The notes under the pieces: model-generated
Told to the model about the DNA's origin: nothing
The model's input: only the letters and a program-made list of their open reading frames with translations
Databases searched by the model: none
Assembly (NCBI RefSeq): GCF_012516435.1
Contig: NZ_CP051216.1
Location: 2,064,001-2,128,000, forward strand
Length of the DNA: 64,000 nucleotides
Source: Pseudodesulfovibrio sp. zrk46
GTDB taxonomy: Bacteria; Desulfobacterota; Desulfovibrionia; Desulfovibrionales; Desulfovibrionaceae
Direction: 5' to 3'
Part shown: piece by piece, positions 20,882 through 62,332 of the stretch
Layout: each line of letters begins with the position of its first letter
How positions within the stretch are numbered: the first letter of the stretch is position 1
Translations under genes and position numbers: made by a program

Positions 20882-20933
20882 GGCAGGAGACTAGCCTGTT
20901 TCGGTGCGCGGCTCAATGGGGAAGAGGGGAAGG

Positions 20934-21202
20934 ATAGGATGCCGCTCTGCGAGCGGCAATTGTCGGGTGATTTCGTCTCCCGGCGGGCTTAAGGCCAAGG
21001 GCCTTAAGAATCCCATATGCGCCTTCGGCGCGGATAAAATTGCGCCAAAGGCGCAGAGTGGGATTCCAAAGGGTATAGCCCTTTGCTTCAGCCGTTGGCG
21101 AGTCTTCGAGCCTTACGGATGAAGACAGCAGCGATGGCCGCCGGAGGCGAAATTACCTATCAAATGGAGGCCGAAGGCCGACCTCCCAACCTGATTCCCT
21201 CT
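20934..21202. repeat. Multi-hairpin intergenic element R1, copy 1
   Basis: About 270 bases between groEL and the TPR gene sharing layout and blocks with 30466-30672: ATAGGATGCCGCT start, a long outer stem (20969-20987 with 21138-21154), inner hairpins CTTAAGGCC/GGCCTTAAG, TGCGCC/GGCGC(G), TGCGCC/GGCGCA and CCAAAGGG/CCCTTTG, and a final GGAGGCCGAAGGCC block. Copy 1 has about 50 extra bases before the closing stem. Stem pairs differ between copies but pairing is kept, so this is more than a sequence repeat. Confidence 0.75.
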
Positions 21203-21206
21203 CCCA

Positions 21207-21241
21207 CAAAAAAAGAGGCCGGGCATAAACCCGGCCTCTTG
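21207..21241 (-). terminator. Terminator of the groESL operon
   Basis: On the minus strand AAGAGGCCGGGTTTATGCCC... forms a CCGGCCTC/GAGGCCGG stem ending in seven T, 24 bases beyond the groEL stop codon. Confidence 0.9.
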
Positions 21242-30433: not shown

Positions 30434-30465
30434 ATGGTGTTATGGTCGTGGTTTGGGAAAGCAGA

Positions 30466-30672
30466 ATAGGATGCCGCTACGCGGCGATTGTCAGGTGATT
30501 TCGCCTCCGGCGGGCAAGGACTCGCGCCCTTGCATCCCCCTTTTGCACCTACGGTGCAGAACTAACTTCGCCGAAGGCGAGAGTGGGATTCCAAAGGGTA
30601 TAGCCCTTTGGCCGCCGGAGGCGAAATCATCCAACAATGGAGCCGAAGGCGACCTCAAAATCTGATTTCCTC
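30466..30672. repeat. Multi-hairpin intergenic element R1, copy 2
   Basis: About 205 bases. Perfect 17-bp outer stem: 30497-30513 with 30612-30628 (GATTTCGCCTCCGGCGG and its reverse complement). Inside are hairpins CAAGG/CCTTG, TGCACC/GGTGCA, TTCGCC/GGCGA and CCAAAGGG/CCCTTTGG; outside are GCCGC/GCGGC at the start and GAGCC/GGC..CTC at the end. Aligned to 20934-21202, hairpins 2 and 3 have different bases but preserved pairing. Confidence 0.78.
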
Positions 30673-30673
30673 A

Positions 30674-30710
30674 TAAAAAAAACGGCGCAGTGTCACTCAC
30701 TGCGCCGTTA
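30674..30710 (-). terminator. Terminator of the ydb operon
   Basis: On the minus strand AACGGCGCAGTG / CACTGCGCCGTT is followed by eight T, 30 bases after the distal ydbL stop. Confidence 0.9.
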
Positions 30711-42254: not shown

Positions 42255-42404
42255 GCTGCAATTTCAGCGTGTTAGAAAATGAGATTTTTTTGCAAAAATC
42301 CGTTGACAAAAACAGGACTCGTGGGCAGTATCCCCTTCGCTGAACGCGGATGAGTTCACCGACGCAACCGCCTGTCAACGCAGCGAAATAAAGTTGAAAA
42401 AGAG

Positions 42405-42433
42405 TTGACACCCACGGCGGGTCGGGATAAACA
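42405..42433 (+). promoter_or_regulatory. Promoter of the tRNA-Val/tRNA-Asp unit
   Basis: TTGACA (42405-42410), 17-base spacer, TAAACA (42428-42433), 12 bases before tRNA-Val. The duplicate array at 62 kb has the same -35, spacer length and -10. Confidence 0.72.
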
Positions 42434-42445
42434 TCCTCTTCCTGC

Positions 42446-42521
42446 GGGCGCTTAGCTCAGTTGGGAGAGCATCGGCCTTACAAGCCGAGGGTCACAGGTT
42501 CGAGCCCTGTAGCGCCCACCA
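42446..42521 (+). tRNA. tRNA-Val (anticodon UAC)
   Basis: 76 bases including encoded CCA. Acceptor GGGCGCT/AGCGCCC, D-stem GCTC/GAGC, anticodon stem TCGGC/GCCGA around loop CTTACAA (anticodon TAC), T-loop TTCGAGC. Differs from the 62089 copy by one D-loop base. Confidence 0.97.
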
Positions 42522-42566
42522 TCTTTGAAATATTGGGGATCGCTTAACACCCCATTATTATAGTGC

Positions 42567-42693
<127 letters not shown>

Positions 42694-48180: not shown

Positions 48181-48253
48181 CAATGGGTCGCATTGAGGCT
48201 ACGTTAAACGACAGTTAATCCAATAAAATCAGGCAGGCTAGAGCTAGTCGCTT

Positions 48254-48350
48254 GCCTATCACGCCGGAGGCCGCGAGTTCGAATCTCGTTGGCTCCGCCA
48301 CTAGAAAGAAAAAGCCCTTACACAATCGTGTAAGGGCTTTTTCTTTGGTC
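48254..48350 (+). repeat. Right attachment repeat with tRNA-Asp 3' fragment
   Basis: Carries anticodon-arm-to-CCA sequence of tRNA-Asp (48254-48300, with CTATCAC in place of CTGTCAC and two more changes) plus the tRNA terminator hairpin, ending TTGGTC like the left copy. No 5' half, so it is not a tRNA gene. Confidence 0.88.
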
Positions 48351-61986: not shown

Positions 61987-62047
61987 GTTTCGTCACTGTT
62001 GATGAGCATTGAATTGGAAAAAAAGTATGATTCTTTTGAAAATTGAA

Positions 62048-62076
62048 TTGACAACCCGCTCGACTCCTATTAAACA
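62048..62076 (+). promoter_or_regulatory. Promoter of the second tRNA-Val/tRNA-Asp array
   Basis: TTGACA (62048-62053), 17-base spacer, TAAACA (62071-62076), 12 bases before tRNA-Val. Confidence 0.72.
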
Positions 62077-62088
62077 GACTCCTCCTAC

Positions 62089-62164
62089 GGGCGCTTAGCT
62101 CAGCTGGGAGAGCATCGGCCTTACAAGCCGAGGGTCACAGGTTCGAGCCCTGTAGCGCCCACCA
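62089..62164 (+). tRNA. tRNA-Val (anticodon UAC), second copy
   Basis: Same structure as the gene at 42446; one T-to-C change in the D-loop. CCA encoded. Confidence 0.97.
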
Positions 62165-62209
62165 TCTTTGAAATATTGGGGATCGCTTAACACCCCATTA
62201 TTATAGTGC

Positions 62210-62286
<77 letters not shown>

Positions 62287-62297
62287 CTAGAAAGATC

Positions 62298-62332
62298 AAG
62301 CCCTTACACAATTGTGTAAGGGCTTTTTCTTT
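62298..62332 (+). terminator. Terminator of the second tRNA array
   Basis: AAGCCCTTACACAATTGTGTAAGGGCTT type hairpin with T-run; the loop differs by one base (ATT for ATC) from the 42655 copy and restores a perfect palindrome. Confidence 0.88.

Follow-up and report, generated by a model that had tools for sequence, protein, structure and literature searches.

A high-copy modular intergenic repeat of Pseudodesulfovibrio with structured half-units often placed after stop codons

Two structured composites in the window

The window analyzed here is a 64,000-nucleotide stretch of the Pseudodesulfovibrio sp. zrk46 genome, and it contains two structured composites, copy 1 and copy 2, both of which are intergenic. 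An initial annotation had described them as two copies of one element comprising about seven hairpins in identical order enclosed by an outer stem. The features of both loci are given below, with half-units located by a covariance model (R2) that covers the linker, the core hairpin, hairpin B and hairpin C over 79 positions; hairpin A (~20 nt) lies ahead of the model.

20925..21205, no strand assigned: copy 1 composite of two facing half-units, lying between the groEL terminator and the start of a TPR-protein gene, both genes on the minus strand
~20941-20957: left hairpin A of copy 1, GCCGCTCTGCGAGCGGC, directly ahead of the left half-unit model match
20957..21037, plus strand: left half-unit of copy 1 (linker, core, hairpins B and C), model match of 82.8 bits
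21036..21166, minus strand: right half-unit of copy 1, split by a nested repeat, model match of 52.6 bits
~21167-21187: hairpin A of the right half of copy 1, with the end motif CCTGATT at ~21190
21086..21136, plus strand: nested repeat R1 in copy 1, a 51-nt bulged hairpin with the constant tail GACAGCAG(A/C)GAT
21213..21240, minus strand: intrinsic-terminator-like site on the downstream side of groEL, beyond the composite
30455..30685, no strand assigned: copy 2 composite, lying between the terminator of a DUF1318 gene and the start of a pseudouridine synthase gene, both genes on the minus strand
30485..30563, plus strand: left half-unit of copy 2, with hairpin A at ~30473-30485
30562..30640, minus strand: right half-unit of copy 2, model match of 92.5 bits, with hairpin A just past the match and the end motif ATCTGATTTCC at ~30660-30670
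30681..30709, minus strand: intrinsic-terminator-like site on the downstream side of the DUF1318 gene, beyond the composite

Both copies fold far better than their shuffled counterparts (z of -9.6 for copy 1 and -8.2 for copy 2, with 0 of 200 shuffles as good in either case), and the paired changes originally quoted for the second and third hairpins are present between them. The hairpin order is not identical, as copy 1 carries the additional 51-nt repeat (21086-21136) and the left hairpin B occurs in different versions (CTTAAGG..CCTTAAG in copy 1 and GCAAGG..CCTTGC in copy 2). The initial annotation had seen no known riboswitch core; no Rfam family reaches threshold at either copy, only four tRNAs reach the gathering threshold over the window, and the weak matches at copy 1 remain far below theirs. 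Scores to microRNA families, all sub-threshold and located on long hairpins, were rejected as assignments to a known RNA family. In the minus strand reading hairpin C of both copies is weakly terminator-like, with strong terminators located outside or between units. Copies 1 and 2 lie beyond the terminators and close to the start codons of the downstream genes, positions at which a 3'-end role is not applicable, and they are probably composites that have spread without 3'-end function.

Separately, the tRNA-Val/tRNA-Asp pair of the window is duplicated at 42397-42689 and 62040-62332, the copies being 19.6 kb apart and 93% identical over 293 nt. A third partial copy (48249-48350) overlaps the 3' part of tRNA-Asp, and an operon that by eye resembles formate dehydrogenase lies between the first and third copies, as if following an integration at tRNA-Asp.

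Alignment of 18 two-sided copies from the own genome, together with inspection of 20 loci in relatives, demonstrated that each copy is made of two half-units placed face to face. The repeating unit proper is one such half, ~100 nt long, in which a conserved linker accompanies four local hairpins (A, core, B and C). In its own sense, the half-unit begins with a degenerate end (A)AATCAG and a purine-rich stretch followed by hairpin A, the constant linker TTGTCRGGTGAYTTCG, the core hairpin CGYC-TCC-GRCG, hairpin B, the sequence (A)ATCCC and hairpin C. A strong perfect stem is present at the hairpin A position in 106 of 127 distinct upstream stretches, compared with 23.8 expected from mononucleotide shuffles. 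The frequent versions of hairpin B are CCAAAGGG..CCCTTTGG and the two found in copies 1 and 2, with rarer versions in addition. Since hairpins A and B each occur in a few frequent, interchangeable versions plus rarer ones, the element is a mosaic. Linker identity is about equal in 94 non-fused and 36 fused units, and this conservation of the linker in lone units that have no partner half points to recognition of the linker sequence itself. Tandem arrays of half-units with periods of ~198-270 bp were also observed in relatives (L113, L114 and L116 in genome G007, L276 in G012 and L275 in G046).

The outer stem comes from one conserved linker and core being present twice in inverted orientation. 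In a partner test of 18 fused composites (20 stem positions, 338 lettered cells) there were 0 matched changes and 27 one-sided changes, with an average of 1.06 matched changes obtained for shuffled partners. On this test the outer stem was rejected as a conserved feature; it results incidentally from a conserved sequence occurring twice in opposite orientations. All 18 fused pairs among the 130 units studied are from the own genome and none of the 61 units from relatives is fused, so the expectation that further copies would keep the outer stem failed. Facing pairs with a terminator-sized centre of 20-120 nt number 14 (5 from the own genome and 9 from relatives); a terminator is seen in the centre of several, and some units flank a shared terminator. 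The fused form seems to be derived and restricted. The initial annotation had thus detected a real signal of kept structure and mistaken the composite for the unit.

These observations bear directly on the proposal that the functional molecule is the complete set of seven hairpins and the outer stem, either as a folded trans-acting RNA or as a riboswitch-like element, made as a discrete transcript. The strong fold and the covariation of the local hairpins are what such a molecule would be expected to have, but the outer stem does not covary, the units studied in relatives are halves or pairs around a centre, none of them fused, and hairpins A and B are exchanged among versions. Furthermore, Rfam provided no match and no sigma-70-like promoter was found beside copy 1 or copy 2, in a scan of little power for which the chance expectation was only 0.2. 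We regard this explanation as very improbable.

Covariation, copy number and distribution

Pairing is maintained in the local hairpins. When 34 units were aligned without a model, 11 of 17 pairs had changes on both sides and 92.9% of cells paired, with 0 of 500 shuffles reaching either value; the number of further pair types was reached by 15 of 500 shuffles, and pairing fell below 50% once the partner was slid. In the larger set of 130 units (128 distinct), 12 of 17 pairs were two-sided, representing 231 cells, and again 0 of 500 shuffles reached either number, which upholds the original proposal that structure was preserved over sequence. The 130-unit alignment, like an alignment of 58 matches for the nested repeat, was fitted to a model (R2 and R1, respectively), so that its pair counts lean towards structure; the 34-unit alignment and a 20-copy alignment of the nested repeat were not fitted to a model, but their structures were named after the sequences had been seen. 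Covarying cells are also not independent events, since hairpin versions recur. The paired changes noted between copies 1 and 2 are genuine as changes, but several represent recurrent alternative versions (76 GC and 40 UA at one pair) and there are fewer events than cells. The associated claim that the element is not the result of passive duplication holds in a restricted form, as the kept fold argues against passive duplication alone.

A comparison of wobble states was carried out on the same pairs. Over all 17 pairs there were 31 sense G-U cells versus 25 A-C cells, and 15 versus 5 when only the core and hairpin C pairs were counted, a subset chosen after the fact on account of alignment shifts in helix B. 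This asymmetry was rejected as proof of selection at the RNA level, as informative cells are too few and a mutational bias could produce the same result.

Copies 1 and 2 are not isolated in the genome. With copy 1 as a blastn query there are 82 matches in the own genome, and the half-unit model R2 identifies at least 107. Across the genus, R2 matches were obtained in 31 of 36 genomes, the number per genome ranging from 0 (in 5 of the 36) to at least 131 (G007), with at least 29 in G022. A blastn search with copy 1 matched 22 of 41 sampled genomes, comprising 22 of the 25 from the same genus (own genome included) and 0 of 16 from other genera. Of 297 genomes drawn evenly from the order, 42 matched R2 at 1e-6; 25 of these belong to the same genus and 17, with weak matches, to four other genera of the family. 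An exact core pattern searched in the species collection recovered 13 stretches, all 13 being Pseudodesulfovibrio records, in a collection from which records near the own genome may be absent. Copy 2 had no match in plasmids and copy 1 had none in phages. Based on these results, the element is a modular repeat of intergenic regions in Pseudodesulfovibrio, with a high copy number.

The nested repeat R1 is a second structured repeat with its own distribution. It is nearly constant in its CGAGTCTTCGAG and GACAGCAG parts. Several further copies have it within their units, where it lies at hairpin junctions and occurs in both orientations, and it is also present outside units. Among 20 copies from the own genome 7 of 13 pairs change on both sides; in the fitted alignment of 58 matches from other genomes (45 distinct rows, some places being represented twice) 12 of 13 pairs are two-sided. 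The R1 model identifies at least 37 copies in the own genome and is matched in 18 of the 36 genomes of the genus. In the order, it is present in 90 of 297 genomes and 15 of 55 genera, all from one family, and several loci contain tandem or facing copies (R1 loci include L280, L292, L293 and L305). No Rfam family exceeds threshold for R1. No mobilizing gene was found for it, and it was not found in 30 Y1_Tnp loci of the family (L308-L337). R1 as the ends of a transposon was rejected, as two facing copies 4 kb apart in genome G048 enclose what appear, from ORF translations alone, to be ordinary chromosomal genes. One exact R1 pattern had no match in viral contigs, a result of little weight given that the pattern was two bases wide at a position where copies have other spacings.

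Placement relative to genes and in relatives

Placement was evaluated for 130 matches from 95 chosen sources (69 units from the own genome and 61 from relatives), which are best matches and not a random sample, with gene positions predicted by a codon-usage script that had been trained on this window, in place of the annotation. Two of the 130 units were dropped from the counts, one that lies inside a gene call, the only such unit, and one that has no downstream gene. Among the remaining 128 units, 51 are in sense with the upstream gene at 10-45 nt from the stop codon to the model start, compared with an expectation of 15.1 (sd 3.5) for random position and strand within the same gaps; when one unit was counted per place, the values were 42 of 86 and 11.1. 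For 52 stop-proximal units, excluding 1 of 53 with a negative distance, hairpin A begins 4-23 nt past the stop codon with a median of 14. The upstream gene is in sense for 52 of 60 placed units in relatives and for 42 of 69 in the own genome. By a strict rule, a terminator within 130 nt downstream accompanies 7 of 28 stop-proximal units but 0 of 41 others in the own genome, and 12 of 25 stop-proximal units but 2 of 36 others in relatives. The plain form of the repeat therefore seems to be a 3'-UTR unit located between a stop codon and a terminator. Against a 3'-end reading, 77 of 128 units are not stop-proximal and 34 of 53 stop-proximal units have no terminator by the strict rule.

The same counts address the possibility that the unit is itself part of a transcription terminator, either Rho-dependent or an intrinsic 3'-end signal. 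Consistent with this, 19 of 53 stop-proximal units have the stop codon on one side and a terminator on the other, the two members of some pairs enclose a common terminator, and hairpin C has the weak terminator character on the minus strand described above. The unit would be redundant, however, wherever a separate strong terminator is present, and at the fused copies 1 and 2 the terminator of the upstream gene comes before the composite. This role is unlikely.

Alternatively, the units may act at the DNA level, as palindromic targets of a nucleoid, recombination or transposition protein that would bind them in extruded, cruciform shape and recognize the linker sequence. The nearly equal conservation of the linker in non-fused and fused units indicates that it is kept for its sequence, fused copies are often located at sites unrelated to 3' ends, and a second repeat occurs within units at hairpin junctions. 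A strand-indifferent site, on the other hand, would not be expected to favor the sense position after stop codons or to be in excess upstream of terminators, and the arm of the cruciform, which is the outer stem, is not maintained by paired change. We consider it quite improbable that the repeat functions as such a target.

Orthologous sites were compared in relatives, where groEL was found in 35 and the synthase in 34, with 29 loci examined for each. The gap between groEL and the TPR gene is 386 nt here versus 99-190 nt in 13 of 29 relatives; it is 284-1198 nt in 6 of 29, and 10 of 29 have no TPR gene in the locus. By the R2 model, none of the 29 groEL loci of relatives contains the unit, and units suggested by a looser pattern at groEL in L120, L136 and L145 were not confirmed by the model. 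At the synthase locus, 1 of 29 relatives (G022, L149) has a single half-unit that corresponds in place and orientation to the left half of copy 2; L151 gave a further match, which lies outside the 420 nt ahead of the start codon. Sites of the unit differ between species, with the one in G022 as a shared remnant, and the short gaps in relatives could be losses rather than gains in this genome.

Other hairpin repeats of similar plan were observed in the same gaps, on the 3' side of groEL in L119, L136, L143, L145 and L146 and at several synthase loci. In relatives these consist of GCCTCCGGCGGCC followed by a long GGGGGAAGGGG-type hairpin with AACCCTTT..AAAGGGTT, and they are possibly a sister repeat family sharing the core hairpin.

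The distribution among species and sites is compatible with a non-autonomous transposon (MITE) that has no host function, for which the position after stop codons would simply be the least harmful insertion. Copy number varies widely by species, the orthologous groEL gaps are short, and 8 of 52 stop-proximal units have AATCAG directly abutting the stop codon. The compensatory changes in the hairpins, by contrast, suggest a maintained fold, unless mobility is all that is selected for; no transposase was found in association with the unit, no target duplication was shown as the relatives are too diverged, and AATCAG is recognizable in only 46 of 129 units. A MITE origin without host function is a real possibility, though on balance a doubtful one.

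Relation to known repeats and proposed function

REP-like repeats are best known from enterobacteria and pseudomonads, where they are associated with an end tag and a RAYT transposase. The REP unit is 20-40 bp in length, and the GTAG and CGTC superfamilies are tagged at one end. The repeat described here resembles REP and BIME sequences in its high copy number (at least 107 matches in the own genome), its extragenic location and palindromic hairpins, the arrangement of units in facing pairs (18 fused and 14 with a 20-120 nt centre) and the placement downstream of genes (51 of 128 units versus 15.1 expected, in loci chosen from best matches and with 77 of 128 elsewhere). In contrast to REPs, the unit is ~100 nt long with four hairpins and a long conserved linker, and it has neither a GTAG nor a CGTC end tag: the recurrent end is AATCAG, the linker and core consensus holds no tag, and where CGTC does occur it lies within the core, in the minority of units that have T at the pair (16 to 19 units). 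In addition, no RAYT partner was found for the unit in the own genome or in G022. The single Y1_Tnp gene of the own genome (IS200-like, 2412094-2412753) has no unit in its 5.5-kb locus (L061) and is flanked by GGGGACACCTCCCTAATT-type repeats of a different family, and G022 has no Y1_Tnp match even though it contains its at least 29 units. With repeats of another kind on either side of the one Y1_Tnp gene detected in the own genome, a RAYT/REP origin was rejected. The repeat thus resembles REP/BIME but differs in size, end tag and RAYT partner, and it is not a member of the REP class.

REPINs are two inverted REPs acting as one mobile unit, and the fused composite is similar in consisting of two inverted copies that behave as one. 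It differs in that the centre is a short AT-rich stretch, which in other pairs holds a terminator, that no RAYT was found, and that the fused form occurs in one species only among the units studied. Neisserial intergenic mosaic elements and pneumococcal BOX elements are modular intergenic repeats of exchangeable pieces, and by description, not by sequence, they share this modularity with the present repeat, for which the stop-codon position and the paired changes stand out.

Parallels in placement are available from the REP literature. Published accounts report that E. coli REPs act at a similar distance from stop codons (PMC12306157; PMC3733652), that 446 of 4,072 REPs in a wider count lie within 15 nt (PMC12306157), and that the ends of GTAG REPs often supply stop codons (PMC3733652). 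Insertion of IS elements into REP sequences is likewise described (PMC1525189); the occurrence of a second repeat inside units is comparable, although the insert here is a 51-nt structured repeat and not an IS. Among the matches listed in a search of open-licence literature, there was no such repeat in Desulfovibrio or Pseudodesulfovibrio.

The explanation we consider probable is that copies 1 and 2 each consist of two fused units of a modular, REP/BIME-like repeat, that the stop-proximal units of this repeat are transcribed 3' ends, and that fusion was followed by spread. For the stop-proximal copies, an RNA 3'-end element is the likeliest reading, with a mechanism that we infer from sequence. 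Transcription of a gene would continue into its stop-proximal unit, which would then form the 3' end of the mRNA. There, a hairpin next to the terminating ribosome, together with a block to 3' exonucleases, may influence how well the upstream gene is translated or how stable its mRNA is. The conserved linker, unpaired in lone units, would provide a putative binding site. A fused pair may have arisen when two units flanking a terminator lost that terminator, as suggested by the AT-rich centres of fused pairs, and would then have spread in this lineage as a palindromic insertion; no enzyme moving the unit was found. A more specific version of this scheme would have a genus-specific 3'-UTR module anchored at the stop codon, with hairpin A at the downstream edge of the terminating ribosome and the nearly invariant, unpaired linker GGTGAYTTCG bound by a dedicated protein or small RNA. 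Dozens of unrelated genes would thereby come under one post-transcriptional control, exerted on translation termination or on decay of the mRNA 3' end, with fused pairs as the mobilized form. We put this version forward tentatively and consider it rather unlikely as it stands.

The analysis places in a genus of sulfate reducers a larger, four-hairpin REP-like unit, without a tag or a detected RAYT, whose folds are kept by paired changes and which is often found after stop codons at the position of ribosome termination. If the unit acts on translation or mRNA decay, this would represent a REP-like function in a separate repeat family, and the presence of many copies per genome with different hairpin versions makes such an effect directly testable. 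In addition, the terminator-centred and fused pairs suggest how a 3'-UTR element could turn into a palindromic repeat.
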